In this document: piece by piece, positions 10,400-46,846 of the stretch
Numbering within the stretch: position 1 is the stretch's first letter
Layout: every line of letters begins with the position of its first letter
From: Sediminicoccus rosea
GTDB lineage: Bacteria; Pseudomonadota; Alphaproteobacteria; Acetobacterales; Acetobacteraceae
Assembly (NCBI RefSeq): GCF_033547095.1
Contig: NZ_CP137852.1
Location: forward strand, 186,001-250,000
Direction: 5' to 3'
DNA: 64,000 nt
Notes under the pieces: model-generated
The model's input: only the letters and a program-made list of their open reading frames with translations
The model's database searches: none
What the model was told of the DNA's origin: nothing
Made by a program: the position numbers and the translations under genes

Positions 10400-10401
10400 G
10401 G

Positions 10402-29217: not shown

Positions 29218-30216
29218 CTAGTATTCCGCGAAGATCCGGTTCAGCTCCGCGCGGTCCTTCGTCACGGTCAGGCCCAGCATCAGCAGGATGCGCGCCTTCT
29301 GCGGGTTCAGGTTGTCGGCGTTGAGGAACCCCGCCTCCTGCATCCGCGTCGTGTAGAACATGCGGCCCGAACCCGCGCGCGTGCTGGCGGCGATGGGCGT
29401 GCCGGCGGCCATCGCGGCCGTCATCGCCTCACCCAGGGCCGGAGTCACGAAGCTCGGCGCGAAGCCGGCGGAGACGAGGCCCTGCGCGCCGGCGGCGATG
29501 AAGGCCTCGACGGCCGCGCCATCGGCGCCGGCGTAGCAATAGACGATGTCCACGCGCGGCAGGGTGGCCAGGCCGCGCACATCGAACTCCGTCTCGCGGC
29601 CGAGCTTGCGCAGCGGGCGGCGATACCAGGCGATGGCATCGGCATCGGCGTGGCCGAGGCAGCCGAAATCCGGGCTGCGGAAGGTCTGCAGGCGGGAGGT
29701 GCTGGTCTTCGTCACCTCGCGCGCCGCATGGATCTCGTCATTCAGCAGGACCAGCGCGCCGAGGCCGCGCGCCCGCTTGTCACCCGCCACGCGGCAGGCA
29801 TTGGCGAGGTTCATGCCCGCGTCTGAGGACAGGCCCGAGGAAGGCCGCTGCGCGCCGACCAGCACGACCGGCACCTCCACCTTCACCGTCAGCGAGAGGA
29901 AATAGGCCGTCTCCTCCAGCGTCGCGGTGCCATGGGTGATCACGATGCCGTCGAGGTTCGGGATCTCGGCCACCACCTGGTCGCAGAGGCGCACCAGTTC
30001 CAGCCATTCCTTGGGGCCGAGCGCGGTGGAGGGCACGGCCGCGTATTTCACCGCGACCACCTCGGCCACCTCATGCACCTGCGGCCAATAGGCCAGCAGC
30101 TGCTCGGCATCCATCACCTTGCCCAGCGTCGCGTAGTCCGCGATGTCGAAGGGCCCGCGGCCGAGCGAGCCGATGGTGCCGCCGGTGCCGATCAGCGCGA
30201 TTTTGGGCTTGGTCAC
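29218..30216 (-). CDS. L-asparaginase family amidohydrolase
   Basis: This 332-residue protein has both threonine signatures of bacterial asparaginases: IALIGTGGTIGS at residues 6-17 and IVITHGTATLEETAYFL near 94-110, the latter carrying the T-D/A-E/K relay. It lacks a signal peptide, so it should be cytoplasmic. The start is a GTG at 30216 that overlaps the stop of the thioesterase gene. It is therefore the last member of a coupled set of four genes that begins with the alpha-oxoamine synthase. Whether it only degrades asparagine or acts on an amide of the lipid pathway is open. Confidence 0.9.
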   Translation of the reverse strand: MTKPKIALIGTGGTIGSLGRGPFDIADYATLGKVMDAEQLLAYWPQVHEVAEVVAVKYAAVPSTALGPKEWLELVRLCDQVVAEIPNLDGIVITHGTATLEETAYFLSLTVKVEVPVVLVGAQRPSSGLSSDAGMNLANACRVAGDKRARGLGALVLLNDEIHAAREVTKTSTSRLQTFRSPDFGCLGHADADAIAWYRRPLRKLGRETEFDVRGLATLPRVDIVYCYAGADGAAVEAFIAAGAQGLVSAGFAPSFVTPALGEAMTAAMAAGTPIAASTRAGSGRMFYTTRMQEAGFLNADNLNPQKARILLMLGLTVTKDRAELNRIFAEY

Positions 30217-30647
30217 TTGGCGGGCTTCCTCTCGATGATGGAGGTGGTGAGGCGGGAGACGCAGAACAGCTCGCCATCGTCGCGGCGCAGCTCGATGTTC
30301 CAGACATGCACGCTGCGGCCGATCCGCACCGGCGTGCAGAGGCCGAAGGCGCGGCCGCCCTTGGGCAGCGGGCGCAGGTGGTTGGCGTTGATCTCGAGGC
30401 CGACGGCCATGAAGCCCGGCTCGCAGGCCATCATGGAGGCGACGCTGCCCAGCGTCTCGGCCAGCACGACGGAGACGCCGCCATGGATGATGCCGAAGGG
30501 CTGCACATGGCGCTCATCCACCGGCATCTCGCCGCGCAGGAAGTCCGGGCCGATCTCGGTGATGCGGATGTCGAGCAGGCCGTTGACCGAGCCATGGGCG
30601 CGGCTGTGGATTTCCTCGGGCGTGGTGTGCTGGCGCCAGATGCTCAA
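30213..30647 (-). CDS. PaaI-type hotdog thioesterase
   Basis: This 144-residue protein has the PaaI/YdiI pattern: MPVDERHVQPFGIIHGGVSVVLAETLGS, with the HGG loop and the glutamate on the following helix that acts in catalysis, then GLEINANHLRP. It would hydrolyse an acyl-CoA or acyl-carrier-protein thioester in the cytoplasm. No ATG fits; TTG 30647 overlaps the stop of the CDP-alcohol phosphotransferase gene (TTGA) and starts the protein at SIWRQHTTPEE. In a cluster whose synthase has no thioesterase domain it could edit stalled chains or recycle CoA esters. Confidence 0.85.
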   Translation of the reverse strand: MSIWRQHTTPEEIHSRAHGSVNGLLDIRITEIGPDFLRGEMPVDERHVQPFGIIHGGVSVVLAETLGSVASMMACEPGFMAVGLEINANHLRPLPKGGRAFGLCTPVRIGRSVHVWNIELRRDDGELFCVSRLTTSIIERKPAK

Positions 30648-31354
30648 TCTTCCGTCCTTTCCGCTTCGGCCCCGCTGCGCGCCTGGCGCGCGTGCCGCTG
30701 GTCGGCCAGGCCGGCGCTGCGGATGTCGCGACGCAGGACGAAGCCGAAATTCACCAGCATGATGCCGGCCCACAACAGCGAAAGGCAATCCAGCACGGAC
30801 AGGCCGATGCCGGGCACCACCGCCAGGAAGACCCCCGGCAGCAGGTAGAGGAGCACGGCGAGTCCCATGAAGCAGACGCGCAGTTCGGTCGTGCCCACCG
30901 CGTCCAGCGCCAGGCTGTGCACGCCGCTGATCAGCATGCGCGCGAGCGCGAGGTTGCTCAGCAGCATGTAGAGCGAGAGCAGGATGAAGGGGATGGGCAG
31001 CGAGACGAGGCCGGAGGCGGCGAAGCCCAGCGCCACCAGCGTATAGGCGATGAGGTCCACGCCATTGTCGAGGACGAAGCCCTGCACCTTCCGCTCGATC
31101 CGGCGGTGGCGGGCTACCTTGCCGTCCAGCGAATCCCCCAGCCAGTTCAGCCCGAAGCCGAGGAAGACGAGGAAGACCGAGAACAGGCTGGACAGGCCGA
31201 GCGCGAATCCCACCGCGACCAGGACGGCGCCGAAGATGCCGAGGCCGGTGAGGGTGTCGGGCCCGATGCTGGCCGGCACGCGATGCACCATCGCGTCGAG
31301 CAGGCGCGCCTCAGGCTTGGCAAGCCAGCCGCCATTCACGCGACGGGGAATCAC
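30644..31354 (-). CDS. CDP-alcohol phosphatidyltransferase family protein
   Basis: This 236-residue membrane protein has about six hydrophobic segments and the CDP-alcohol phosphotransferase signature. D74 and D77-G78 are followed by A81-R82, then nine residues, G92, three residues, D96, three residues, D100. Most family members have eight residues between AR and G, so this belongs to a variant branch. The family transfers a phospho-head group from a CDP-alcohol to an acceptor hydroxyl, or a CDP-lipid to an alcohol. GTG 31354 overlaps the stop of the oxoamine synthase gene. I infer it adds a phosphate-containing head group to the cluster's lipid. Confidence 0.88.
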   Translation of the reverse strand: MIPRRVNGGWLAKPEARLLDAMVHRVPASIGPDTLTGLGIFGAVLVAVGFALGLSSLFSVFLVFLGFGLNWLGDSLDGKVARHRRIERKVQGFVLDNGVDLIAYTLVALGFAASGLVSLPIPFILLSLYMLLSNLALARMLISGVHSLALDAVGTTELRVCFMGLAVLLYLLPGVFLAVVPGIGLSVLDCLSLLWAGIMLVNFGFVLRRDIRSAGLADQRHARQARSGAEAERTED

Positions 31355-32700
31355 GACCGATCGAGGATCGTCGTGACAGCGTCGAGGGCGGTGTCGATCT
31401 GGGCACGCTCATGCGCCGCCGAGAGGAAGAAGCGCAGCCGCGAGGTGCCCTTGGGCACGCCGGGGGAGGTGACGGGGAAACTGTAGACCCCCATCCGCTC
31501 CAGCTCCTGCGCCATGGCGAAGGTGCGGATATCGGTGCCGAGGATGATGGGGGTCACGCCAAAGCCCCAGCTCGGCCCCACATCCAGGCCGCGGGCGCGG
31601 GCGCCAGCAACGAAATAGGCGCCATTGGCCTGCAGCGCGGCCACGCGCTCCGGCTCGCGCCGCATGATCTCGAGCGCCTTGAGCGAGGCGGCGGCGACCG
31701 GGGCGGGCATGCCCACGCTGTAGACCATGCCGGGGGCGCGGGCCTTGAGGATGTCGATCAGCACCTGGCTGCCGCAGACATACCCGCCGCAGCCGACGAG
31801 CGCCTTCGAGAGCGTGCCGAACCAGATGTCCACCCGGTTCGGATCAATGCCGCTGTGCTCGGCGATGCCGCGCCCGGTGGCGCCGATCACGCCCAGCGAA
31901 TGCGCCTCATCCACCATCAGCCAGGCCTGGAAGCGCTCCTTGATCTCGACGAGGCGGAACATGTCCGGCCCGTCGCCATCCATGGAGAAGAGGCCCTCGG
32001 TCACGATCAGCACGCGCTCGAAGAGGTGGCGCGTCAGCGTCAGGTAGTTCTCGAGGTCATCCAGGTCATTGTGGCGGAAGGATTTGCGCTGGCAGCGCGC
32101 ACCCTGGGCACCGACCACCACGCAATTGTGGATCAGCGCGTCATGGATGATGAGGTCCTTGGGGCCGAGGATCGTCTCGATGACGGAGGCCGCAGTGGCA
32201 TGGCCGCTGACGAAGAGCGCGCCGGCCTCGGCCTCATAGACCTCGGCCAGGGCGGCTTCGAGGGCGCGATGCACCGGCCGCTCGCCCGAGGTGATGCGGC
32301 TGGCCGAGACGCTGGTCCCGTAGCGGCGCGCGGCCTCCTCATGGGCGGCGAGGACTTCCGGGTGGCCGTTCAGCGCCAGGTAGTCATAGCTCGAGAAATT
32401 CAGCAATTCCCGCCCGTTGATCGAGGTCCGGGTGGCGGCGCGGCCGTCATGCACGCGGTAATAGGGATTGGTGAAGCCGAGCGCGGGGCCGACCTGCCGC
32501 TCCATCAGGATCTCGCGATAGGCGGGCAGGCTCTCGAAGGAGAGATCATGCTTGGGTGCGTCTTGGCGCAGGGCCCGGGCGCGCGGCTGCCGGCGGTCAG
32601 CGACCAGATTGGACGGAATCTCGGCGGCAGGGACGGGCGTCGCGGCCTCGCGGCCAAGGCCCGCCACATCCAGTTCCGTCGGAGTCAGCCTCAAATTCAT
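31351..32700 (-). CDS. Alpha-oxoamine synthase (serine palmitoyltransferase-like)
   Basis: This 449-residue PLP enzyme belongs to the family of serine palmitoyltransferase, KBL, BioF and HemA. It has the cofactor-stacking histidine 191 in ALIHNCVV, DEAHS at 264-268, and the Schiff-base lysine 299 in FGTLSKALVGCGG. It condenses an acyl thioester with an amino acid, losing CO2, to give an alpha-amino ketone. The first 65 residues are longer than in BioF and may dock a carrier protein. It is followed by three overlapping genes. With a thioesterase-less reducing PKS next to it, it is the probable chain-releasing enzyme. The amino acid (serine, glycine or alanine) cannot be told. Confidence 0.9.
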   Translation of the reverse strand: MNLRLTPTELDVAGLGREAATPVPAAEIPSNLVADRRQPRARALRQDAPKHDLSFESLPAYREILMERQVGPALGFTNPYYRVHDGRAATRTSINGRELLNFSSYDYLALNGHPEVLAAHEEAARRYGTSVSASRITSGERPVHRALEAALAEVYEAEAGALFVSGHATAASVIETILGPKDLIIHDALIHNCVVVGAQGARCQRKSFRHNDLDDLENYLTLTRHLFERVLIVTEGLFSMDGDGPDMFRLVEIKERFQAWLMVDEAHSLGVIGATGRGIAEHSGIDPNRVDIWFGTLSKALVGCGGYVCGSQVLIDILKARAPGMVYSVGMPAPVAAASLKALEIMRREPERVAALQANGAYFVAGARARGLDVGPSWGFGVTPIILGTDIRTFAMAQELERMGVYSFPVTSPGVPKGTSRLRFFLSAAHERAQIDTALDAVTTILDRS

Positions 32701-32997
32701 CGGCCCGCCATCTCGTCACACGTGTTTACTATATCGGAGCTGTTCTGAACCGGAAGTGAACCGTGCTTCCGCCAGGGTAATGAAATTGTCAAAGCACTTC
32801 CTGAACTTACACAAGATTTATCCGCTTTCCGAGATTCCGCCAAGGTCTTGAGGAGCCGCCTTATCCAAGGATCCAGCCGATTCTGCACAACGATGCTGCA
32901 GAGCAATACAAAAGGATGGGCAGCCCCCCAGCTGAGCCGCGCACCTGAAAAACATCGCGTGTGCGCTTTTTTGGAGCGGTCTGACGAGCGGTCTCTA
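32701..32997. promoter_or_regulatory. Lower-GC intergenic region, oxoamine synthase promoter
   Basis: No gene is supported here. The region is clearly AT-richer than its surroundings and should carry the leftward promoter of the oxoamine synthase operon. On the minus strand TATAGT (32733-32728) is a possible -10. Small palindromes that could be operators are ACACGTGT (32718-32725), GTTCTGAAC (32742-32750) and TCTGCA/TGCAGA (32882-32887 and 32897-32902). The part next to 32998 has T-runs but no convincing terminator hairpin for the PKS gene. Confidence 0.45.
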
Positions 32998-35900
32998 TTA
33001 TTGCGACCGCTGCGCCGAGATCGTCCCGACGATCCGGCCGACCAGGTCCCGGATCGAGCGGTTGCCGCCCATGGTGGTCAGCGGCAGTTCCACCCCCGTC
33101 CGCTTCTCGACGCCGAGGCGCAGTTCCAGCGCCATCAGGGAGTCCAGGCCGATGTCGATCAGTGGTCGGTCGGGCTCCACCGCCTCGGGCGGCAAGCGGA
33201 GGATGCGGGCCACCTCCTCCCGCACCAGGCCCAGCAGCGCCTCGGTCGCCGCCTCGGGCGAGAGGGCGGAGAGGTCGAGCACCTCCTCGCCGCCCTGCGT
33301 GCCGGTCTGGCCCTGCTCCGCGAAGACATCGGCGAAATACGGGGACCGCAGCACGGCGAGCTTGTTCGCCGCGGGGGACCAGCGGATCACGGAATAGGCG
33401 CTGACGGCCGGCGCCGCCGCCGGGTCGGCCAGCAGGGTGCCCAGATGCGCCAGCGCCTCGGCCGAGGTGACGCCCGAGACGCCGGTGGCGGCGCGCAGCC
33501 GCTCGGCCAGCCCACGCGTGCGGGCAATGACGCCGACATCCGAGATCGCGCCCCAGCAGACCGCCAGCGCCGGCACGCCCCGCGCCCGCAGCCCCAGCAT
33601 CGCCCCCTCCAGGAAGGCATTGCCCACCACATAGGCAGATTGGCCCGGACTGCCGACGAAGGTCGTCGAGGAGGAATAGGCGACGAGGTATTGCAGCGCA
33701 TCCCCCGCGATCGCCGCCTCCACCGCGCGCATGCCGGTCACCTTGGGCCCCAGCACGCGCGCGATCTTCTCGGGCGCGAGGCCGAGGATCATCCCGTCCT
33801 CCAGCACCATCGCGCAGTGGATGACGCCGGCGATGGGGCCGAGTTCGGCGCGCCAGCGGCCAAAGGCGGCCGCGACCGCCGCGGCGTCGGTGATGTCCAG
33901 CGCCTCGGTCCGGAGGTCGGTGCCGGCGGCGCGGGCCTGCGCCACGCGTGCGGCCATCGCCTCGTCCACCGCGCCGCGGCGGGAGACGGCGACGACCGTT
34001 CCCGCCCCCTGCGCGGCGAGCCAGAGCGCGGTCTCCAAGCCGAAGCCGCCGGTCCCGCCCAGCACCACATGCACGCCGGGCGCGGGCTGGAAGCGCGCCG
34101 GTGCCGGCGCCGGCGGAACCGCGGTCATGCTTGGCCGCACCAGGATCTTGCCCAGGTGGCCGGAGGCCTGCATCAGCCGGAACGCATCCGCCACGCGCCC
34201 GCCCTCGAAGGCGAGGTAGGGAATGGGCCGCAGCCGCCCCGTCTCGAACAGCACCATGATGACGCTGACCATGCGCCGCACCGCCGCCGGGTCATGCGCC
34301 AGAAGCTGGTCGATGTCGGCGCCGATATAGGTGATGTTCTTCACGAAGGGCCGCAGGCCCAGGCGCGTGTTGTCGTAGAAGTCCCGCTTGCCGAGCTCGA
34401 CGAAGCGGCCGAAGGGACGGACGAGGCGCAGTGCCGCGCGCATCGCATCGCCCGCGACCGAGTTCAGCACCACGTCCACGCCGCCCACCGCCGCGCGGAT
34501 GCGGTCCTCGACATCCGGCGCGCGGGAATCCACCACGTGGTCGGCGCCCAGATGCCGCAGCAGGGCGCGCTTCTCCGCCGTGCCGGCCGCGGCGACGACG
34601 ATCGCGCCGTGCGCCTTGGCGATCTGCACCGCCGCCATGCCGACGCCGCCCGCGGCCCCCTCGATCAGCACCGTCTCGCCGCGCTTCAGCGCCGCGCGCT
34701 CGATCAGGCCGAACCAGGCGGTGACGAAGGCGACCGGCACGGCGGCCGCCGCCTCCTCCGGCAGCACCTGGCCCAGCGGGAACAGGCGGTCCGCCGGGAG
34801 CGTCAGGTGGGAGGCGAAGGCCTGGGCGCCGAAGCCCATCACGGGATCACCGGGCTGGAAGCCTTGCACCCCCTCGCCCACGCGCAGGACATGGCCGGCG
34901 AATTCGAAGCCGAGCGAGCCGCTGGTCAGCCCCTCGCCCAGGATCTCGGAATCCAGCACGCCGAGGCCCAGCATCACGTCGCGGAAATTCAGGCCGGTCG
35001 CGGTGACCGCCAGCTCCACCTCGCCCGCGCCGGGGGCAAGGCGCGGGGCCAGGGCCCAGGCGAAATCCTCCAGCCCGCGCGGGCCGATGCCGAGCAGGCT
35101 GCGCTCCTCCGCCGCCAGGGCACGGGCGCGCGCCTCCATCCGGCGCGCGGCGCGCGGCACCAGGGCGCCCTCGGCGGTGAGGCGCAACTCGCGCTCCAGC
35201 AGCGGCTCGGCGAGGTGGCGGCGCAGCGCCGCCGCCATCACGGCGGGCGGGGCATCGGGCGTCCAGGCCAGGAGGCAGGTCTCGACGGCCGGGAACTCGT
35301 TCATCAGGCAGCGCGCATAGCCCGCCATGGCCTGCGCCATGGGCGTGGGCATGCCGTCCGCCCCCTGTTCCAGCGCCACGTAGAGGCGGGCGGTCGCCTC
35401 GCCCTCGCTGAGCGCGATGGCCAGCTCGCGCAGGCGCAGCATGCGCTCGCCCAGGGCCGCCGCCTCATCCATCGCCACCGCGGGGGCGGACTCGATCAGG
35501 GCGGGCAGGCCCTCGCCCGGCACGGCTTCCGCGACCCAGGCGGCCGCCTCGGCCGGGGTCTGGACGGGCTGGGGCATGAGGCCGGCCAGACGGGCGGCGA
35601 GGCCATCGCCCTCGCCGCCGAGCAGGGCGAAGGTGTGGCGCCGCGCGCCCTCGGCCTCCGCCGGGCGGCGCGGCGGCTGCGCGAAGACCAGCCGCTCGCC
35701 CGAGGCCGGCAGGCTCGCCTGGCGCAGGGCGACGAAGCCGCGCTGCACCAGCGCCTCATCCGCCTCGGAGGGATAGGGCCAGGCGCCCACCGGCTGCTCC
35801 GGCGAGGGCGAGAAGCGGAACCAGCCGGGCGTCGCGGCATGCAGCACGTCGATCGCCGGGTGGTGCGGCGGGATCGCGACCAGCAGCGGCGGCGCCGCAT

Positions 35901-38900: not shown

Positions 38901-40314
38901 AGATGACGAGGTAGCGGGCCGCGGCGCCCGCGGCTTCCCCCGTGGCGGGGGCCGGGCGCTCCGGCGCGGTGCCGATCACGGCATGGGCGTTGGTGCCGCC
39001 GAAGCCGTAGTTGCACAGACCGGCCAGCAGCGGACCCTCGGCCGCCAGCTCGACCGCCTGCGCCGCGGGGGCGAGGCCGAGGCCGGCCACGTCGATGTCG
39101 GGGTTCAGCTCCTCCAGGTAGAGCGTCGCGGGGTAGCGCCGGCGCTCCAGCGCGAGGACGAGCTTCGCGAGGCCGGCCATGCCGGAGGCGGATTCCAGGT
39201 GGCCGATATTGGACTTCACCGAACCCACCGGCAGCGGCGCGCGGCGATGCCGGCCAAGGGATTCCCCGATGGCGCGTGCCTCGATCGGGTCGCCCACGCG
39301 GGTGCCGGTGCCATGCGCCTCGACGAAGGCCAGCGCATCGGGCGAGATGCCGGACTGGCGGTAGATGGCCTCCAGCAGGTCCCGCTGGCCGGTGAGCGAC
39401 GGGAGGGAGATGCCGTTGGTTCGGCCGTCGGAATTCACGCCGATCGCGTGCAGCACGGCACGCGGGCCGGCGGCGCCGAAGCCCCCGCCAAGGCCGGACC
39501 CGGCGCGCGCCAGCACGAGCATGACCGCGCCCTCGGCGCGCACATAGCCATCGCCCTTGGCGGAGAAGGGCCGGCAGCGTCCGGTGGGGGAGAGCATGCC
39601 GGCGCGGGAGAAGCCGATGAAGGGCGCCGGCGAGGAAAGCATGTTCACGCCGCCGACCAGAGCGAGCTCGATCCGCCCCGCCTCCAGCGCCGCCGCCGCC
39701 TGGGCGAGCGCCACGATGGAGGAGGAGCAGGCGGTGTCGAGCGTGAGGCTCGGCCCCTTCAGGTCATAGGCGTAGGAAATCCGGTTGGAGACCAGGGCCA
39801 GGCTGTTGCCGGTCATGAAATGGGCGTCGAGCGCCGAGACGTCGAGCAGCGGCACATCGGCATAATCGGTGGCCGAGGCGCCGACGAAGACGCCCACCTG
39901 CCGCCCGGCGAGGCTCGCGGGCGCGATGCCGGCATCCTCCAGCGCCTCCCAGGTCACTTCCAGCAGGACGCGCTGCTGCGGGTCCATCTGCTCCGCCTCG
40001 CGGCGGGACATGCCGAAGGCCGCGGCGTCGAAGGAGAGCCCCTCCTCCAGATAGCCGCCCGCGAAGGTGTAGGCGGTGCCGCGCGCGGTGGTGTCGGTGC
40101 TGAGGAAGCGCTCGGGCCGCCAGCGATCCGCCGGCGAAATGTCCCGCACGGCCGATCCGCCCGCCTCCAGCAGCGCCCAGAGTGCGCGGAGGTCCGCCGC
40201 CCCCGGGAGCCGGGCGGCGAGGCCGAGGATGTCAAGCGGAGCAGGGAAGTTCAGGATCAACGCAGTGTCCAGGAGGGTTGGGGTGGCGAGGATCGGCGCC
40301 ATGCGGGCGCCCAT
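32998..40314 (-). CDS. Type I reducing polyketide synthase, single module
   Basis: This 2438-residue protein has one full reducing module. KS (about 26-450) has C196 in DTACSSS, H334 in HGTGT and H372 in NIGH. AT (545-850) has GHSVGE with S641 and YPFHS at 742-746. DH (915-1195) has H948 in an HxxxGxxxxP motif and D1109. A degenerate methyltransferase-like region lies at about 1230-1500, with LEPGLGG where a SAM motif should be. ER (1745-2062) has GAAGGVGMA; KR (2075-2300) has GGTGGFG and S/Y2228/N2232; ACP has S2392 in GLDSLMALEL. There is no thioesterase. The order matches highly reducing iterative synthases, so a saturated long acyl chain is likely. ATG 40302 is an alternative start. Confidence 0.95.
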   Translation of the reverse strand: MGARMAPILATPTLLDTALILNFPAPLDILGLAARLPGAADLRALWALLEAGGSAVRDISPADRWRPERFLSTDTTARGTAYTFAGGYLEEGLSFDAAAFGMSRREAEQMDPQQRVLLEVTWEALEDAGIAPASLAGRQVGVFVGASATDYADVPLLDVSALDAHFMTGNSLALVSNRISYAYDLKGPSLTLDTACSSSIVALAQAAAALEAGRIELALVGGVNMLSSPAPFIGFSRAGMLSPTGRCRPFSAKGDGYVRAEGAVMLVLARAGSGLGGGFGAAGPRAVLHAIGVNSDGRTNGISLPSLTGQRDLLEAIYRQSGISPDALAFVEAHGTGTRVGDPIEARAIGESLGRHRRAPLPVGSVKSNIGHLESASGMAGLAKLVLALERRRYPATLYLEELNPDIDVAGLGLAPAAQAVELAAEGPLLAGLCNYGFGGTNAHAVIGTAPERPAPATGEAAGAAARYLVISAHSKAALRELAAAYLEPVERLGAAAVAAAAQAGRDRLPHRLVLDLAQGGVVPPALMEPDLARPDLAVGEAIARQARIAFVFSGNGTQWPGMGRAAYHGNAVFRAAFDEWAARIRAAGGICPLETMLAEDVAQRIAATSAMQPLLMAIQLSLCAALAAEGLRPDVVLGHSVGEVAAAAASGALSPEDAARLIVVRSAGQEVVQGLGGMAVLACDATRAAEIIAEAGTDEVEIAARNAPGSTTLSGTSQALAEVLRTARRARIASVTLDVAYPFHSRILDPGREATVAALAGLRPGPTRVPMISSVTGAEVAGAALDGAYWWSNIRAPVLFQDAVTTALGRAELFIEIGPRPILGSLVADVARHAGVRAAAIATLTQGRGAEEADPIARILLEAVVKGAPLAGAPLATGPAPGVRDLPLMRWDRQEYVIGATPEAYGIYGPSHGGAPLHALIGARLAPGGPEWRHMLSVPTQPFLAGHKVDGQVIVPATAYMEMMLAVGREVHGTSRLRILDLDILRALSLEQAQELSILWHEAERVVEIRARPRLDAGAGFTLHARAILLPEPAAQPQPQPVPAGGEAHDAAAIYAATAACRLGYGGAFRAARSARAAGNTVITEISGTAPDLGFFTDTLVIEPASYDAAFHGIFLGIPQKPGQVLGELPVRIGRLSLYVPGEPVVRSVARLTRQTADARVFDIELLSADGRLVGRGEGVVMRRVTFAAWREADRIIEQRLQPWRAGPADLTAAMAEALARPLPAADTAARAGLIGLALDIAGHVVNMVAEGRAPERSPGLAGPIAPPARVIWRALTDARQEAEQLAATQAIPVLTQGLADPGAALAGFAARHPEASADLRLALHTLEALPAILATGQDAPPNADMLDAVMSASVFAAPSLDALATVVDRLAAPGEGGRLRLVLLEPGLGGLLPRLLPRARAGEISLAILAADVEAAERLLARAGAARAVPVLGPDAQRSGAVFDLALCAAVTPLDGGQPSPLDLLAGLGDAAPPLLVAIPPHHPAIDVLHAATPGWFRFSPSPEQPVGAWPYPSEADEALVQRGFVALRQASLPASGERLVFAQPPRRPAEAEGARRHTFALLGGEGDGLAARLAGLMPQPVQTPAEAAAWVAEAVPGEGLPALIESAPAVAMDEAAALGERMLRLRELAIALSEGEATARLYVALEQGADGMPTPMAQAMAGYARCLMNEFPAVETCLLAWTPDAPPAVMAAALRRHLAEPLLERELRLTAEGALVPRAARRMEARARALAAEERSLLGIGPRGLEDFAWALAPRLAPGAGEVELAVTATGLNFRDVMLGLGVLDSEILGEGLTSGSLGFEFAGHVLRVGEGVQGFQPGDPVMGFGAQAFASHLTLPADRLFPLGQVLPEEAAAAVPVAFVTAWFGLIERAALKRGETVLIEGAAGGVGMAAVQIAKAHGAIVVAAAGTAEKRALLRHLGADHVVDSRAPDVEDRIRAAVGGVDVVLNSVAGDAMRAALRLVRPFGRFVELGKRDFYDNTRLGLRPFVKNITYIGADIDQLLAHDPAAVRRMVSVIMVLFETGRLRPIPYLAFEGGRVADAFRLMQASGHLGKILVRPSMTAVPPAPAPARFQPAPGVHVVLGGTGGFGLETALWLAAQGAGTVVAVSRRGAVDEAMAARVAQARAAGTDLRTEALDITDAAAVAAAFGRWRAELGPIAGVIHCAMVLEDGMILGLAPEKIARVLGPKVTGMRAVEAAIAGDALQYLVAYSSSTTFVGSPGQSAYVVGNAFLEGAMLGLRARGVPALAVCWGAISDVGVIARTRGLAERLRAATGVSGVTSAEALAHLGTLLADPAAAPAVSAYSVIRWSPAANKLAVLRSPYFADVFAEQGQTGTQGGEEVLDLSALSPEAATEALLGLVREEVARILRLPPEAVEPDRPLIDIGLDSLMALELRLGVEKRTGVELPLTTMGGNRSIRDLVGRIVGTISAQRSQ

Positions 40315-40488
40315 CCCGGGATGGTCTCGTGCGGCTGGTTCAGTCTGGGCGTATCATCCCCTGAACGTGCTGGGCTGGCGCACTGGCCGGCCCCCTCTGC
40401 TGCCCTCCTCACTCCGATGGCTTGGAACCTCTGGACACACCTTGGCAAGACGGATTGAACAAGAGTTTTCGGACCAGACTGCTCCTGG

Positions 40489-40537
40489 CAGGCGAATCCC
40501 GACAGGCAATAGGCAACAGGCGATTCTCAGCAGGCGC
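40489..40537 (+). repeat. Heptamer-phased direct repeats (YAGGCRM)
   Basis: Units matching YAGGCRM start at 40489, 40503, 40510, 40517 and 40531, that is, at exact multiples of seven bases (0, 14, 21, 28, 42); two intervening heptamers at 40496 and 40524 do not match. This could be a multi-site operator in which proteins bind at short, regular spacing, or the remnant of a 7-bp tandem repeat. Confidence 0.6.
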
Positions 40538-40551
40538 GGTGTCGCGTGCGC

Positions 40552-40592
40552 ATTGTAACAGAGGGGCGTCGTCATTGCCTTCCCCTTACAAT
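40552..40592. repeat. Long inverted repeat in divergent promoter
   Basis: ATTGTAA (40552-40558) and TTACAAT (40586-40592) are perfect inverse copies. Just inside them GGGG (40562-40565) and CCCC (40582-40585) extend the pairing after a short bulge. It may be a cruciform, an RNA stem-loop in a leader, or two half-sites of an operator about three helical turns apart. Confidence 0.5.
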
Positions 40593-40716
40593 CGGATACG
40601 CTATTTTCATCTCTCGATTCAAGTTTCCCCAATCCCCGCTCCCGCCCATGGGGCCGCTCAGCCTGGAGGCCGGATGGTGAAGGAGGCGCGGCGCGCCCTG
40701 CCGGGAGGCACCCTCG

Positions 40717-41538
40717 ATGACTGAGGCCGGGCCCGGCTGGGCGCTCGTCACCGGCGGTTCCAGCGGCATCGGCGAGGCCTTGGCGGCGGGGCTCCTGGCC
40801 CGGGGCCTGCGCCTGGTGCTGGTCGCGCGGGATGCCGGCCGGCTGGCGGCCGCCCAGGCGCGGCTGGCGGCGGGGCATGCGGGCGGCCCGCCGATCGAGA
40901 CGCTGGCGCTGGATGTGGGGGAGGCGCCGGCGGTGGCCGCCGCCATGGACGGGCTGGTCGGGCGCCTCGGACCACCCGCCTGGGTTGTGACGAGCGCGGG
41001 CATTGCGTTGCCCGGCCGCTTCCTGGACCAGCCCCTGGCCGAGCACGAGGCCCAGTTCCGCGCCAACTACCTCGGCACCCTCAACATCCTGCATGCGCTG
41101 GCACCTTCCATGGCGCGGGCCGGGCGCGGGCAGGTGGTGCTGCTTTCCTCCGCCGCGGCGCTCGGCGGCTTCGCGGGCTATGCCGCCTATGCCCCCTCCA
41201 AATGGGCGATCCGGGGCCTGGGGGAGATCCTGGAGCTGGAGCTCGGCGCCCATGGGGTGCGGGTGCTGACCGCCTTCCCGCCCGACACCGACACGCCGCA
41301 ACTGGCCGAGGAGCGCGCCCGTCGCCCGGCCTTCACGGCGCGCTTCGCGGGCGGCGGCACGGCCCTCAGCCCGGCCTTCGTGGCCGCGCGCATCCTGGGC
41401 GCGGCCGATCGCGGCGCCCGGCGGGTGGCGCCCGGCTTCGGCGCCAGCCTTCTGCTCTGGGCCGGGCGCCCCTGGGCGCGCTATCTGGAGGCGGCACAGC
41501 GCCGGCTGCTGCGCCGGCACCCCGAGGATTCCCGCTGA
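40717..41538 (+). CDS. SDR reductase, 3-ketodihydrosphingosine-reductase-like
   Basis: This 273-residue short-chain dehydrogenase has TGGSSGIGE at 12-20 (NADP binding), serine 144/145, tyrosine 158 and lysine 162 (YAPSK) as catalytic residues. The segment AFPPDTDTPQLAEE (187-200) closely resembles the PPDTDTPG stretch of animal 3-ketodihydrosphingosine reductase (KDSR), which most SDRs lack. The likely reaction is NADPH reduction of the beta-amino ketone made by the oxoamine synthase to an amino alcohol. A good ribosome-binding site (GGGAGG) precedes the ATG. It heads the six-gene rightward operon; the P450 gene begins one base after its stop. Confidence 0.85.
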   Translation: MTEAGPGWALVTGGSSGIGEALAAGLLARGLRLVLVARDAGRLAAAQARLAAGHAGGPPIETLALDVGEAPAVAAAMDGLVGRLGPPAWVVTSAGIALPGRFLDQPLAEHEAQFRANYLGTLNILHALAPSMARAGRGQVVLLSSAAALGGFAGYAAYAPSKWAIRGLGEILELELGAHGVRVLTAFPPDTDTPQLAEERARRPAFTARFAGGGTALSPAFVAARILGAADRGARRVAPGFGASLLLWAGRPWARYLEAAQRRLLRRHPEDSR

Positions 41539-41539
41539 C

Positions 41540-42937
41540 GTGAAGCGCCTCTCCCTCCAGCCGCCGATCATCGAGGAAGCCGGCCCGGGCTGGCTCATCC
41601 CCGCGCATCCTGAGCCCCTGGCCAAGGGTCCGGGCGGGCTGCGCCTCGCCATGATGGCGCGGCACAGCCTGATCGGCGTCTGGACCGCGGACAGCTACGC
41701 GGCGCGGGATTTCGCCTACCGCCTGCTCCGCCGCCAGGTCTGCGTCTTCAACGACCCCGCCTCCATCAAGGCGGTCTTCGTGGCGGGGGCGGACCGGTTC
41801 GAGCGCAAGGGGGCGATGATGCGCCGCGCCCTGGCGCCCCTGCTGGGCGACGGGCTCTTCATCTCCGACGGCGAGACCTGGCGCCGGCGCCGGCCGCTGG
41901 TGGCCGACATCGCGCACAAGACGCAGGTGCCCTTCTACGCGCCGATGATGACCGGCGCGGTGACCGACATGCTGGCCGGCTGGCACGAGGGCGAGGCGAT
42001 CAGCCTGCTGCCCGCCATGGCGGAGCTGACGGCGCAGATCATCGCGCGATCCATCTTCGGGACGCGGCTGGGGGCGGAGGCGCTCTCCGGCATCGTGCAC
42101 GGCTTCGGCCGCTACCAGGCGGGCATCGACAGCTTCAACCTGCCCTTCTTCCTGGGCGCCGCCGAGGGCTGGCCGGTCGGTCGCGGCCGCGCGCTCCGCG
42201 CCGCCATCGCCGAGGTGCATGGCGTGGTGGAGCATGTGATCACCGAGCACGTCGCCGGCCGGGGCGAGCATGGCTCCATGGTCGACATGCTGGTGCGCCG
42301 CATGCAGCGCAGCCCGGAACTCGGCCTCGACGTGCAGGCGCTGCGCAACGAGGCCGCGACCATCTTCATGGCCGGCCACGAGACCACGGCGGCGACGCTC
42401 ACCTGGGCCTTCTACCTGCTCGCCAAGGCGCCCTGGGCCGAGGCGTCGCTGCATGCCGAGCTGGATGCCGTGCTGGGCGGGCGGGAGCCCACCGCCGACG
42501 ACGTGGCGAACCTTCCCTATGCCCGCGCCGTGATCGAGGAGACGCTGCGCCTCTACCCGCCCGTGCCCATCCTGCCGCGCCAAGCGCGGGAGGCGACGCA
42601 GGTGGGCGACATCGCGGTGGAGAAGGATGCGCTGGTGCTGGTGGTGCCCTGGATCCTGCACCGCTCGCCCGACCTCTGGGAGCAGCCGATGCATTTCCGG
42701 CCCGAACGCTTCCTCGAAGGCCCGGCACCGGTGCCCTACAGCTACATCCCCTTCTCGGCCGGGCCGCGCATCTGCGCCGGGCTGAATTTCGGCCTGACCG
42801 AGGCGATCCTCTGCCTCGCCATGGTGGCCCGGGCCTTCCGCCTGCGCCTCGCGCCCGGCTTCACGGCCGATCCGGTCTGTCGTCTGTCGCTCAGGCCGCA
42901 ACACCCGATCACGGTCCGGCTGGAGCGACGGGGTTGA
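41540..42937 (+). CDS. Cytochrome P450
   Basis: This 465-residue protein has all P450 landmarks: the oxygen-activation helix with AGHETT (278-283), ExxR at E334-R337 in EETLRLYPP, and the heme loop FSAGPRICAG with ligand cysteine 412. It looks soluble, without an N-terminal anchor. The FNDPASIKAVF and FERKG segments near residues 70-91 recall fatty-acid hydroxylating P450s, so chain hydroxylation is a fair guess. No ferredoxin or reductase gene is nearby, so electrons must come from general partners. GTG 41540 is the start. Its stop overlaps the acyltransferase start (TTGA). Confidence 0.92.
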   Translation: MKRLSLQPPIIEEAGPGWLIPAHPEPLAKGPGGLRLAMMARHSLIGVWTADSYAARDFAYRLLRRQVCVFNDPASIKAVFVAGADRFERKGAMMRRALAPLLGDGLFISDGETWRRRRPLVADIAHKTQVPFYAPMMTGAVTDMLAGWHEGEAISLLPAMAELTAQIIARSIFGTRLGAEALSGIVHGFGRYQAGIDSFNLPFFLGAAEGWPVGRGRALRAAIAEVHGVVEHVITEHVAGRGEHGSMVDMLVRRMQRSPELGLDVQALRNEAATIFMAGHETTAATLTWAFYLLAKAPWAEASLHAELDAVLGGREPTADDVANLPYARAVIEETLRLYPPVPILPRQAREATQVGDIAVEKDALVLVVPWILHRSPDLWEQPMHFRPERFLEGPAPVPYSYIPFSAGPRICAGLNFGLTEAILCLAMVARAFRLRLAPGFTADPVCRLSLRPQHPITVRLERRG

Positions 42938-43833
42938 ACGAGACGCCGAACCAGCCCGTGCCCGACCGGCGCGCGCCCACCCTGCTGAACCGGCTGCTCG
43001 ACCTGTGGGAAATCACGCTCTACCAGGTGTTCCGCCGGCTGCCGATCGACCTGGCCCCCACGCTCTCCCGCCGCAGCACCGTCCGCAACATCCGCGAGCA
43101 GCGGCCCTGGGTGGTGGAGCGCGCGCGCGCCAATCTGAAGCGCCACCGCCCGGAGGCGAGCGACGCCCAGATCGAGACCTGGGTGAACAACTTCCTGGAC
43201 AATCTCGGCCGGCAAGTGGGCGAGGTGGCGACGGTGGGCCGGCAGCATGCTGCCGGGCGCATCGAATTCGTCCAGCCGGTCAGCGTTCGGGAGAGGTGGA
43301 ACCGGAGGCCGATCCTCGCCATCGCCGTTCACACGGGCAATTGGGAGGTGATGGCCGAAGCCTTCACCCTGGCCGGCCTGAGCGTCGCCATCATCCCGAT
43401 CGAGTGGGAAAGCCGCGGTCAGGACTGGATCCTGGCGGATCTGCGCCAGCGCAACAGCATGCGCCTCTTCCCGAAGGACCATCGCGGGCTGCGCGCCATG
43501 CTGCGGGAAATGCAGGAGGGCGGCATCTTCTCCATCTTCGTGGATGAGGTGCGCGACGGGAAACTCATGGGCCCGCTCTTCGGCCGCGCACCGCACATGG
43601 ATGGTAATCTCGGCGTTGCCGCACGGCTCGCGCGCCGCTTCAACGCGCCGGTCGCCCTCTGCTACGTGACACGCACGCCGAACAACCATTTCCGCGTGTT
43701 CTTCGGGGACCCGATCGACCTGCCTCCCGACACGAAAAATCCACTGGACGATGTGCGCTTCCTGAACGACCTGATCGAGCCGGTAATCCTGGAGCGGCTT
43801 GATCAGTGGTTTTTCCTCGATGATGAATTCTGA
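42934..43833 (+). CDS. LpxL/HtrB-type lipid acyltransferase
   Basis: This 299-residue protein is a member of the lysophospholipid acyltransferase group of lipid A lauroyl transferases. The catalytic HX4E pair is H133 and E138 in HTGNWE, and IFVDEVRDGKLMGPLFGR is the usual later substrate loop. LpxL enzymes acylate hydroxyl groups on lipid A at the inner membrane from acyl-ACP. An N-terminal anchor is weak here. Set between a P450 and a GNAT enzyme, it more likely acylates the cluster's amino lipid, on nitrogen or oxygen. TTG 42934 overlaps the P450 stop and is preceded by GGAGCGACGGGG. Confidence 0.85.
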   Translation: MNETPNQPVPDRRAPTLLNRLLDLWEITLYQVFRRLPIDLAPTLSRRSTVRNIREQRPWVVERARANLKRHRPEASDAQIETWVNNFLDNLGRQVGEVATVGRQHAAGRIEFVQPVSVRERWNRRPILAIAVHTGNWEVMAEAFTLAGLSVAIIPIEWESRGQDWILADLRQRNSMRLFPKDHRGLRAMLREMQEGGIFSIFVDEVRDGKLMGPLFGRAPHMDGNLGVAARLARRFNAPVALCYVTRTPNNHFRVFFGDPIDLPPDTKNPLDDVRFLNDLIEPVILERLDQWFFLDDEF

Positions 43834-44458
43834 GCCCGGAGACGTCGCCGTCGGCCCGCTGCCGCCCGGGCCGCTGGGCGATCACGTCCTGGACCTGGCG
43901 GCGACCGGCCGCGCGGGGCTGGCGGCCTTGCTGGGCGATGCGCCGCAGCGCCATGCCCTGTTCCGGCGGGGAATGCGGGCCGACCGCTTCCTGGTGGCGA
44001 CGGTGAATGGCGAACTGGCCGGCTATCTCAGCCTGAAATACGCGGGCCAGGGGCCCTTCGCGCCCAGTCTCGGTGATTTCATCCGCTGCCAGGGCTGGCG
44101 CCGTGGCCCGCATGCCTGGGCGGTGTTCTCCTGGATCGAGGCGCGCACGCAACCGCGCCCGCGCGGCGCCTACGTCTACGGGATGGATGTGCTGAAGGCA
44201 TGGCGCGGCCACAAGCATGGGCGGGATGTGGGCGGCGCGCTGATGGCCGCGGCGATCGAGGCGATGACGCGCCTCGGCTACACCAGCCTCGACATGGAGG
44301 TCCGCCGCCCGACCGCCCGCGCCCTGGCGCGGCGGGCGGGCGCGGTGCCTGCCGTGGCGCCGCGCCTCTCCCTCACCCGGCTGCTCATGGCCACGGCGGG
44401 AGAATACGAACGCCTGACCATCCCCCTCACGCCGGAGGCGCGCCATGGCCGGCCATGA
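43820..44458 (+). CDS. GNAT family N-acyltransferase
   Basis: This protein of about 212 residues has the GNAT fold. FLVATVNGELAGYLSLKY forms the central strands, GAYVYGMDVLKAWRGHKHGRDVGGALMAAAIE is the acyl-CoA pyrophosphate loop (given here by its ends VLKAWRGHKHG and GGALMAA), and LGYTSLDMEV is the next strand. It transfers an acyl group from a thioester to an amine. ATG 43820 is used; TTG 43799 after GGAG is an alternative. It overlaps the LpxL-like gene by 14 bases. As I recall, the ceramide synthase described from Caulobacter is also an acyl-CoA N-acyltransferase-fold enzyme, so N-acylation of a sphingoid-like base is plausible. Confidence 0.8.
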   Translation: MMNSEPGDVAVGPLPPGPLGDHVLDLAATGRAGLAALLGDAPQRHALFRRGMRADRFLVATVNGELAGYLSLKYAGQGPFAPSLGDFIRCQGWRRGPHAWAVFSWIEARTQPRPRGAYVYGMDVLKAWRGHKHGRDVGGALMAAAIEAMTRLGYTSLDMEVRRPTARALARRAGAVPAVAPRLSLTRLLMATAGEYERLTIPLTPEARHGRP

Positions 44459-45587
44459 CCTGAACCTGGCCGCGCTGCATGATCCGCAGGCCTTCGCCGA
44501 GGAGCAGGCGCGGCTTGGCAGGGTGTGGACGCTGCTCGGCTTCACCACGGACCTGCCGCGGCAGAATGACTGGTTCCGCGCCGTGCTGGGCGGGCGCTCC
44601 GTCTTCATCCAGCGCTTCGCGGAGGGGCTGCGCGGCTTCGAGAACCGCTGCGCGCACCGCTCCTTCCCGCTGCGAACGACGGAGCGCGGCAACGGCCCCG
44701 TGCTCTGCGGCTTCCACCACTGGCGCTATGATTCCGAGGGCCGGGCCGCCGGCATTCCCAATTGCCAGGACGCCTTCGGCACGACGCCGCGCGAGCTCGA
44801 TCGCCGCCTCGCGCCGCTCGATGTCGCCTGCTGCGGGCAGCTGATCTTCGCGCGCTTCCCGGGCGCCACCGAGACGCTGGAGGAGTTCCTCGGCCCGCTC
44901 TTCGAGGTGCTGGCCCTGCTCTGCGCCGACCTTGGGCAGCAGCGGCGCGCCACGCTGTCGGCGCGGATGAACTGGCGCATCAGCCAATGGATCAGCATTG
45001 ACGACTACCACCTGGCGGCGGTGCATCCGAAGAGCCTGCCGACGGGCCGCCGCTACCTCCGCCGGACGGAGCTCGGCTATCACCGGATCGGCCGGCACAG
45101 CGCCTATTTTCACCGCCAGGATGCCGGCGACGTGGCGGACTGGCTGGACGAGCTGCGCGGCAAGCGGCCGGTGCGGACCGGCTATCGCGTGGTCCATCTC
45201 TTCCCCAATGCGGCGATCACCTACCTGCCGCGCCTCTTCGTGTTGCCGCGGGTTGCGCTGCCCTTCCCCTACCTGCTGATCCAGCGCCATGTGCCCGTCG
45301 CGGCGGATCGCACACATCTCGAGGCGACCACGGCGGCGGTGGCGGGGCTGCCGCGCCATGCTTCCTGGCTGATGCGGCTGATCGCGCCCTTCGAATGGGC
45401 CCGCCTGCCCTTCGTGCAGCGCCGCATGCTGCGCGTGCTGCGCGAGGACCAGGCGGTCTGCGAGGCGATGCAGACCGGCGCCGCGCAGATCGCGCCCGAT
45501 CCGCTCTATGGCGCGGCCGAGGCCCGGATCGCCTGGTTCGACGAGGCCTATGCCGCGGCGATGCGGCCCGAGGCTTCACCGGGATGA
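44445..45587 (+). CDS. Rieske non-heme iron oxygenase, alpha subunit
   Basis: This 380-residue protein has a Rieske [2Fe-2S] site (C69, H71, C88, H91: CAHRS then CGFHHW) and the mononuclear iron ligands H189 and H194 in DDYHLAAVHP, with aspartates 186-187 in the position that links the two centres. LREDQAVCEAMQ near the C-terminus is the usual late motif. Such enzymes hydroxylate, demethylate or desaturate. No beta subunit, ferredoxin or reductase gene adjoins it. It starts 14 bases before the GNAT stop and its own stop overlaps the glycosyltransferase ATG (ATGA). The substrate is probably the same lipid handled by the P450. Confidence 0.92.
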   Translation: MAGHDLNLAALHDPQAFAEEQARLGRVWTLLGFTTDLPRQNDWFRAVLGGRSVFIQRFAEGLRGFENRCAHRSFPLRTTERGNGPVLCGFHHWRYDSEGRAAGIPNCQDAFGTTPRELDRRLAPLDVACCGQLIFARFPGATETLEEFLGPLFEVLALLCADLGQQRRATLSARMNWRISQWISIDDYHLAAVHPKSLPTGRRYLRRTELGYHRIGRHSAYFHRQDAGDVADWLDELRGKRPVRTGYRVVHLFPNAAITYLPRLFVLPRVALPFPYLLIQRHVPVAADRTHLEATTAAVAGLPRHASWLMRLIAPFEWARLPFVQRRMLRVLREDQAVCEAMQTGAAQIAPDPLYGAAEARIAWFDEAYAAAMRPEASPG

Positions 45588-46846
45588 ACCAGCCCCTCGT
45601 CCTCGATGTCTCGCGCCTGCTCTGGCGCGCGGTGCGCGCCGCACCCGGCGGCATTGACCGGCTGGAGCTGGCCATGGCGCAGCATCTGCTGCGCGAGGAA
45701 CCCTCGGCGCGCTTCGTCTTCACCGATGGCGGCGTGGTCCGCGTGCTCAAGCCTGCCATGGCCCGCCGCCTGGTCGAGGGCGCCTCGGCCCGCTGGTCGG
45801 GCCATCCGCGCGATGCCGCCTGCGGGCGTGTCACGGCCTATCTGGCCGGCGCGGAGGACGCCTTCCCCCCGGCCCGCGCCCGCCTGGCCGACCGGCAGGT
45901 GCCGCTGGTGGATCTGGGCCGCAACCTGCTGGCCGGGCTGCTCTACCGGCGCGGCGTGCCGCGCACGGCGGAGCCGGAGGCGCTGCAGGGCGCCACCTAC
46001 CTGAACCTCTCGCACCGCAACCTGGATGACGCGAAGCTCTTCGCCGCGCTGTCCCGCGCGGGCCACCTGCTCTGCTACCTGCATGATGACATCCCGCTGC
46101 GCCGCCCGAACCTTGCCGCGCCGGGCAGCGACCAGCGCTTCCGCCGCATGCTCCGCCACCTGGGCGAGAGGCCGGTGCGGATCGTCACCAATTCCGCCGC
46201 CTCCCGCCGGCGGATCGTCGAGAGCGCGGCGGCGCATGGCCTGCGCCTCGCGCGCGTCGAGGTCATCGCGCCGCCGGTCGCGGAGCTCTTCACGCATCGC
46301 ACGCCGCCTTCCGTCGCGGGGCGCCGCTTCTTCCTCGTTCCCGGGCTCGTCACCGCGCGCAAGAACCTGGCCCTGCTGGCCGAGGCCTGCCGCGCCATGG
46401 CCGGGCGGCGCGACTTCGACCTCATCCTGGCCGGCGCGCCGGGGCTGGATGCGGCGGAGGTGCTGGCCGGGCTCGGCGCCATGCCGCCCGGCATTCGGTT
46501 GCTGCGTGCCGAAGGATTGAGCGACCACGCCATGGCCCGGCTGGTGCGCGCGGCCATCGCCGTGCTGGCGCCCTCGCTCGAGGAAGGCTTCGACTACCCG
46601 GTGCATGAGGCGCTGGCCTCGGGCGTGCCCGTCATCGCCTCCGACATTCCCGCGCATCGCGAATATGTCGCGGGCTATGCGGAGTTGCTGGATGCGCGGG
46701 ACGTGGCGGGCTGGGCCGCCGCGCTGGCGGATTTCGCCGCGGGCGGGCCGCGCCATGCGGCGGCCCGCGCGGCAGCCGGCCGCTTCGCGGCGCCGAGCCC
46801 CGCCCGGCTGCTGCGCGGGATGACGGAGCTGGCGCGCGCCACCTGA
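45584..46846 (+). CDS. GT4-type glycosyltransferase
   Basis: This 420-residue GT-B enzyme has an N-terminal half ending in HLLCYLHDDIPLRRP and a C-terminal donor domain with FFLVPGLVTARKNL (the usual G-x-RKN loop), then SLEEGFDYPVHEALASGVPVIAS, the EX7E region that binds the nucleotide sugar. It resembles GT4 mannosyl/glucosyl transferases. It is the last gene of the six-gene operon starting at 40717 and is coupled to the Rieske gene by ATGA. A role in adding a sugar to the amino-lipid, giving a glycosphingolipid-like product, is inferred from position only. Confidence 0.88.
   Translation: MNQPLVLDVSRLLWRAVRAAPGGIDRLELAMAQHLLREEPSARFVFTDGGVVRVLKPAMARRLVEGASARWSGHPRDAACGRVTAYLAGAEDAFPPARARLADRQVPLVDLGRNLLAGLLYRRGVPRTAEPEALQGATYLNLSHRNLDDAKLFAALSRAGHLLCYLHDDIPLRRPNLAAPGSDQRFRRMLRHLGERPVRIVTNSAASRRRIVESAAAHGLRLARVEVIAPPVAELFTHRTPPSVAGRRFFLVPGLVTARKNLALLAEACRAMAGRRDFDLILAGAPGLDAAEVLAGLGAMPPGIRLLRAEGLSDHAMARLVRAAIAVLAPSLEEGFDYPVHEALASGVPVIASDIPAHREYVAGYAELLDARDVAGWAAALADFAAGGPRHAAARAAAGRFAAPSPARLLRGMTELARAT

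Follow-up and report, generated by a model that had tools for sequence, protein, structure and literature searches.

A polyketide synthase and alpha-oxoamine synthase cluster in Sediminicoccus rosea as a candidate sphingolipid pathway

What kind of lipid is made by a gene cluster that joins a reducing polyketide synthase (PKS) to an alpha-oxoamine synthase (AOS) and to a series of lipid-tailoring enzymes? The question is raised by positions 29218–46846 of a 64,000-nucleotide stretch of Sediminicoccus rosea (NZ_CP137852.1; G000:C1:186001-250000), hereafter the window, in which all positions of the cluster are counted. The source genome (G000) has 5.14 Mb, and its closest relatives are Roseomonas-like and Rubritepida genomes of the Acetobacteraceae. 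A sequence-only reading had proposed that the locus makes a PKS-fed amino-polyol or ceramide-like membrane lipid with a phospho- and glyco-head group. Our analysis points to a stand-alone polyketide-derived sphingolipid pathway with phospho/glyco tailoring, to which we give a probability of about 0.55, and derivation from the capsule-anchor lipid family is the best reading of its origin. A sphingoid-type lipid made by a PKS-fed AOS that lies outside BioF and KBL is kept as the best reading, and the head group is a plausible inference, as genes for a CDP-alcohol phosphotransferase and a GT4 glycosyltransferase co-occur with the PKS-AOS pair in relatives.

In the AOS tree (99 rows), the AOS of the window fell inside an 81-row clade with a Shimodaira–Hasegawa approximate likelihood ratio (SH-aLRT) support of 99, together with the AOSs of capsule loci (L139–L142). 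This clade excluded BioF, KBL, ALA synthase, and canonical serine palmitoyltransferase (SPT), so the grouping with KBL or BioF that would have spoken against the proposed pathway was not seen. Judged by sequence, the enzyme is a member of the PKS-linked AOS family (SgaAB/RkpAG/WcbR type). Loci were fetched for 20 of the 29 family genomes with an AOS match, and for 8 of these on the second side also; the PKS was directly beside the AOS in 19 of the 20. Among the named loci, which are the best 80 of at least 586 confirmed, the PKS adjoined the AOS in 78, and the other two start at contig edges. The same arrangement was found in 17 of 20 Pseudomonadales loci, the three exceptions being the BioF-like rows L136–L138. 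Among the matches listed, the hosts of the PKS-AOS pair were Alpha-, Beta-, and Gammaproteobacteria and one Desulfovibrionaceae genome, and no AOS relatives were found in viral contigs. The AOS sequences of G010 and Rubritepida flocculans DSM 14296 were identical.

The PKS is a single module with the Pfam domain order KS-AT-DH-(long linker)-ER-KR-ACP and no Pfam thioesterase match, in agreement with the earlier description of a reducing PKS without thioesterase. The motifs TACSS, HGTGT, SVKSNIGH, GHSVGE with YPFH, HKVDGQVIVP, GAAGGVG, YVVGN, and GLDSL were found, and we take GHSVGE with YPFH in the AT domain to indicate the malonyl type. Because the long DH-ER linker gave no methyltransferase match, the product is probably an unbranched, reduced (saturated) long acyl chain. 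The Caballeronia capsule-locus homologue (L140) keeps a C-methyltransferase in this linker (8873–10525; PF13489, 34.7 bits). In the KS-AT tree, the PKS of this locus and that of R. flocculans (L046) stood within one 11-row clade (support of 100), which was sister to a Bosea/Beijerinckiaceae/Ancylobacter/Rhizobium clade (joint support of 99) in which 9 of the 10 genomes carry the cytochrome P450. Both trees were 'quick' searches, and the KS-AT tree was made with a simpler model.

Every gene type named by the sequence-only reading was recovered in its place (Table 1), with gene calls at 29218–46846 backed by domain matches and by coding signal, the GC content at third codon positions being well above that at second positions. 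The genes form two divergent, tightly coupled sets, as had been described: the PKS, AOS, CDP-alcohol phosphotransferase, hotdog thioesterase, and asparaginase on the minus strand, and the short-chain dehydrogenase (SDR), P450, LpxL-like acyltransferase, GNAT, Rieske oxygenase, and GT4 on the plus strand. Adjoining genes overlap by a few bases, and the sets are parted by a 402-bp gap (40315–40716), in which a scan found no promoter or terminator. Motifs that we take to be catalytic were matched in the PKS, CDP-alcohol phosphotransferase, acyltransferase, P450, Rieske oxygenase, and SDR.

In the proposed pathway, the iterative PKS would build the acyl chain on its own ACP, and the AOS would release it by condensing it, in a decarboxylative, pyridoxal phosphate-dependent reaction, with an amino acid (probably serine) to yield a 3-keto-sphinganine-like base. 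Serine is proposed by analogy, because SgaB of Pseudomonas fluorescens uses it; since the AOS passed no curated family cut-off, it is a suggested rather than a demonstrated substrate. The KDSR-like SDR would reduce the ketone, and the P450, with the Rieske oxygenase where present, would hydroxylate the chain. The LpxL-like enzyme may add a second chain, which is proposed to be N-acyl, with the GNAT as the alternative enzyme. The CDP-alcohol phosphotransferase would add a phospho-alcohol and the GT4 a sugar, and the product would presumably reside in the membrane, the order of these steps being likewise presumed.

The tailoring genes were characterized by motif, fold, and homology. The motif D-x2-D-G-x2-A-R-x9-G-x3-D-x3-D was invariant in 12 of 12 aligned CDP-alcohol phosphotransferase sequences, and the structural model of the enzyme (predicted local distance difference test score of 81.5) had cholinephosphotransferase as its best fold match; by catalytic motif and fold it is predicted to be of the CPT/EPT type. 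Its gene overlaps the AOS gene, and the two stay together in all 8 near loci. The SDR was 39% identical over 241 aa to the SDR adjoining the S. meliloti AOS, and the PDB relatives of the P450 included CYP97 and CYP102. Among the 8 relatives with sequence fetched from the plus-strand side of the cluster, 4 have the GNAT, and that of a Pseudomonas capsule locus with a PKS-AOS pair is a homologue (31% over 149 aa, E of 2e-15). GT4 was present in 7 of the 8. An intact Rieske gene was found in only one of them (G015, full-length), six gave no match, and in G019 an 85-aa remnant (L032:3168-3389) stands where the S. rosea locus has the intact gene. The Rieske gene looks as though it were being lost or had been acquired recently.

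The conserved-neighbourhood search that had been suggested was carried out. The PKS, AOS, CDP-alcohol phosphotransferase, SDR, P450, LpxL-like, and GT4 genes occurred together in 7 of the 8 relatives for which both sides were fetched; the eighth (G026, AOS 57%) has the PKS-AOS pair without the CDP-alcohol phosphotransferase, P450, LpxL-like, and GT4 genes. R. flocculans DSM 14296 carries the tailoring set, and all seven genes recurred within one 19-kb locus in Bosea sp. AAP35, within about 30 kb in a Beijerinckiaceae genome, and as two modules about 43 kb apart in Bosea sp. Root381. For the P450 and LpxL-like counts, 48 genomes of the 80 named loci were used. The P450 (≥41% identity) was present in 22 of them, in 16 of these it lay within 64 kb of the AOS (8 within 5 kb), where the rough chance expectation for genomes of such size is about one, and the LpxL-like gene adjoined it in 15 of the 22, with a 16th found by tblastn. 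One P450 gene (G466:C27:13549-14920; L169) is split over two reading frames, which could reflect a frameshift or an assembly error. Bosea sp. OK403 has a short LpxL-like fragment match beside the P450 (L055:14848) and a full-length copy on another contig (G472:C1:133824-134648).

Table 1. Genes of the S. rosea cluster, with positions in the window
Feature	Position	Strand	Basis
Iterative type I PKS, 2438 aa	32998..40314	-	Pfam domains, motifs, linker scan
Alpha-oxoamine synthase, 449 aa	31351..32700	-	PF00155, PDB relatives KBL and SPT, tree
CDP-alcohol phosphotransferase, 236 aa; proposed head-group enzyme	30644..31354	-	Weak Pfam match, motif, fold
Hotdog thioesterase	Better start 30647	-	4HBT domain
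Type II-like asparaginase, first gene of the interval	29218-30216	-	Gene absent from the list of the sequence-only reading
Short-chain dehydrogenase, 273 aa; proposed 3-ketosphinganine reductase (KDSR/RkpH-like)	40717..41538	+	Pfam, PDB match, homology
Cytochrome P450, 465 aa; proposed chain hydroxylase	41540..42937	+	Pfam, motif, PDB relatives, linkage
LpxL/HtrB-family acyltransferase, 299 aa; proposed N-acyltransferase (alternative O-acyl)	42934..43833	+	PF03279, HTGNWE motif
GNAT-fold acyltransferase, accessory	43799..44458, start uncertain (43799 or about 43820)	+	PF00583
Rieske-type oxygenase alpha subunit, 380 aa, variable accessory	44445..45587	+	Domain, motif
GT4-family glycosyltransferase, about 420 aa; proposed sugar transfer	45584..46846 (open reading frame listed from 45395)	+	Pfam, better start 45584

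Several results weigh against a sphingolipid pathway of this kind. The best curated NCBIfam model for the AOS was bioF (345 bits, cut-off 426), and none of the SPT models was passed (172/670, 251/500, and 274/640 bits, score/cut-off). The Pfam match of the CDP-alcohol phosphotransferase was weak (CDP-OH_P_transf, 24.6 bits versus a cut-off of 22), and the best PDB match of the SDR, the KDSR TSC10 (8jat), was nearly tied with two other SDRs. No P450 at ≥41% was found in 26 of the 48 named genomes, the cluster contains no gene recognisable as a dedicated flippase or electron-transfer partner, and in Ancylobacter sp. Lp-2 and the Beijerinckiaceae genome the set lies among polysaccharide genes. 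The hunt for PfSgaB gave its C-terminus in 0 of 20 Pseudomonadales loci and a primer-derived pattern in 0 of 10 and then 1 of 390 genomes. Matches to inositol-phosphate synthase (PF07994) were limited to 3 of 60 genomes, and the 10 genomes with an AOS of ≥62% all lacked one; an inositol-phosphate head group, at which a weak archaetidylinositol model had hinted, is therefore disfavoured, with inositol uptake still conceivable. The bioF match might also mean that the AOS is an ordinary BioF or KBL paralogue and that the adjoining lipid genes are unrelated to it. However, a true BioF (L136) reached 478 bits against the same model, the capsule-linked AOSs likewise stayed below the cut-off with scores like that of this AOS (333–358 bits), and the KBL model (2am3keto_CoA) gave 257 bits against a cut-off of 493. 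The scores below cut-off, together with the separation in the tree, lead us to reject a BioF or KBL identity and leave this explanation with next to no weight. It is less far-fetched, but still improbable, that the AOS uses glycine or alanine to form an aminoketone or a 1-deoxy base on which no 1-phosphate head group is possible, the product being a signal or an antibiotic-like metabolite by a fumonisin-like logic. The substrate is not readable from the AOS sequence, and the two oxygenases resemble those that tailor secondary metabolites. Against this stand the overlap of the CDP-alcohol phosphotransferase gene with the AOS gene and its retention beside that gene in the near loci, the conservation of the set among congeners, where it is not patchy, and the almost exclusive serine specificity described for SgaB in the cited part of its report (PMC12134224).

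A weightier rival, though one we still regard as unlikely, is that the product is a lipid that anchors or carries a surface polysaccharide, as proposed for rkp-1 and wcb, with the GT4 adding the first linker sugar and the rest of the glycan being made elsewhere. Homologues of both AOS and PKS lie inside capsule loci on Pseudomonas, Caballeronia, Paraburkholderia, and S. meliloti plasmids, and polysaccharide-export and glycosyltransferase genes accompany the P450 and LpxL-like genes in the Ancylobacter and Beijerinckiaceae genomes just named. All 14 other PKS-AOS family genomes carry the Kps capsule synthesis domain PF05159, within 5 kb of the AOS in 12. In contrast, the source genome gave no PF05159 match at E≤1e-10, and neither did 7 of the other 9 genomes with an AOS of ≥62% (8 of 10 with the source included); the remaining two (G005 and G015, both with 7% contamination) do give matches, none of which adjoins the AOS. 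No polysaccharide-export gene was found among the neighbouring open reading frames scanned, and the CDP-alcohol phosphotransferase, P450, and LpxL-like enzymes fit a finished membrane lipid. The anchored glycan may also be of a Wzy-type or other non-Kps kind. No canonical SPT was found in the source genome, and four family genomes (G021, G028, G029, and G033) have an SPT-like protein (442–485 bits) and no PKS-AOS match; the capsule and SPT counts come from small, related samples.

In congeners (L023, L024, and L026–L029), Kps-linked ('alpha') and window-type ('delta') clusters share one chromosomal place, flanked by hotdog-asparaginase-RraA and, in most, a sphingosine-1-phosphate (S1P) lyase homologue. 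Because the two cluster types occupy the same place and yet are far apart in the KS-AT tree, one PKS-lipid system has probably displaced the other. The hotdog thioesterase had been counted as a part of the pathway; it also adjoins the different, Kps-linked PKS cluster, as does the asparaginase, and neither gene was found close to the delta loci of G010, G013, and G018. For these reasons, the hotdog as a PKS release factor and the asparaginase as a pathway part were set aside; the former is probably a syntenic neighbour, and the latter looks like one. The S1P-lyase homologue (20503–21729, minus strand) lies about 9 kb from the cluster and matched 3mad (E of 8e-82) and the human enzyme (5e-77), the next non-S1P-lyase match being 9e-22; a histidine that we take to be phosphate-binding is not conserved in it. 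The homologue was present in 8 of 13 congener flanking loci, beside both cluster types, and was not found in those of G008, G010, G013, and G018 or in the 3-kb piece of G015. A WecB-type UDP-GlcNAc 2-epimerase gene (51554–52633, plus strand) stands among housekeeping genes about 5 kb past the GT4 gene.

If the sphingolipid reading is true, searches for canonical SPT alone miss sphingolipid producers, bacteria without SPT, CerR, and bCerS could still make complex sphingolipids, and free membrane sphingolipids and capsule lipid anchors would be joined in one enzyme family. A bolder version, which we put forward only tentatively and consider doubtful, is that an Acetobacteraceae/Rhizobiales family makes a stand-alone, P450-hydroxylated phospho-glyco-ceramide that is entirely PKS-fed, as capsule-anchor kin turned free membrane sphingolipid. 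The LpxL-type enzyme would then be a ceramide synthase of a third kind, unrelated to the other two, and the cholinephosphotransferase-like enzyme a bacterial sphingomyelin or ceramide-phosphoethanolamine synthase.

Among known systems, the canonical bacterial ceramide pathway (spt, cerR, bcerS) shares the expected chemistry of acyl chain plus serine, reduction, and a second acyl chain, whereas the S. rosea cluster has an AOS outside the canonical SPT clade, a classical SDR instead of the epimerase-type reductase that adjoins a canonical SPT (L164), and other acyltransferases. Apart from SPT itself, no protein of the canonical locus L164 matched the tailoring genes with a meaningful score. The fungal fumonisin and sphingofungin clusters, to our knowledge, make free mycotoxins and have no CDP-alcohol phosphotransferase, LpxL-like enzyme, or GT4. 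They share the reducing PKS, the AOS, the KDSR homologue (FUM13/SphF, as given in the SgaAB report, PMC12134224), and the P450 logic. The swf sponge PKS family was considered as a close relative and dropped; in the source passages it has R+ST domains and modest homology to WcbR/RkpA. The PKS-AOS pair lies among capsule genes in annotated plasmid loci of Pseudomonas, Caballeronia, Paraburkholderia, and S. meliloti, and the S. meliloti pSymB locus is homologous to that of S. rosea (AOS 44%, SDR 39%, KS-DH part of the PKS 40%), the rkpA/G/H names there being assigned by order and homology. The rhizobial rkp-1 region is presumed to supply the capsule with a lipid carrier, and rkpA has been connected with wcbR in the passage cited (PMC3908369). 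The rkp-1 and wcb-type Burkholderia loci sit with capsule synthesis and export genes, whereas a Kps gene was undetected here.

A 2021 survey lists type-1 PKS groups of the Acetobacteraceae. Its cited parts place R. flocculans in the delta group, list the DSM 14296 PKS with a PLP aminotransferase and an oxidoreductase and without a thioesterase, and give the alpha group a GT4, an aminotransferase, and a capsule protein; the delta group is listed without a named product, and the terms searched returned no mention of sphingolipids (PMC8776678). The R. flocculans locus L046 is 57% (PKS) and 65% (AOS) identical to that of S. rosea, and, with L046 taken to be the survey's delta PKS, the S. rosea cluster is probably of the delta type. 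A search of the open-licence literature, both for PKS-sphingolipid routes that include CDP-alcohol enzymes and for such routes in Roseomonas, gave nothing closer. The core idea is already described, because SgaA (PKS) and SgaB (AOS with SPT activity) of P. fluorescens (2025) are an iterative PKS and an AOS that give sphinganines. The claim that no described pathway combines these parts therefore does not hold for the core, given SgaAB, the PKS, AOS, and SDR trio of rkp-1, and the listing of the delta group. According to the cited passages, SgaAB makes C24–C28 sphinganines and probably or putatively also phosphoglycerol sphingolipids, SgaC is the proposed KDSR, and 6101 homologous clusters were counted, mostly in Burkholderia (PMC12134224). 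Strain MYb115 shares with S. rosea an iterative mono-modular PKS, an AOS, a KDSR-like SDR, and, by prediction for S. rosea, a sphinganine-type product, and differs, in a comparison by description rather than by sequence, in the P450, LpxL-like, CDP-alcohol phosphotransferase, and GT4 genes found here. The cluster thereby offers candidate genes for steps of the PKS route that the cited passages leave open or do not discuss, namely, the second acyl chain, chain hydroxylation, and the phospho head group. What sets the cluster apart is the tailoring set of KDSR-like SDR, P450, LpxL-like enzyme, CDP-alcohol phosphotransferase, and GT4, an unstudied variant of a known PKS-AOS core.

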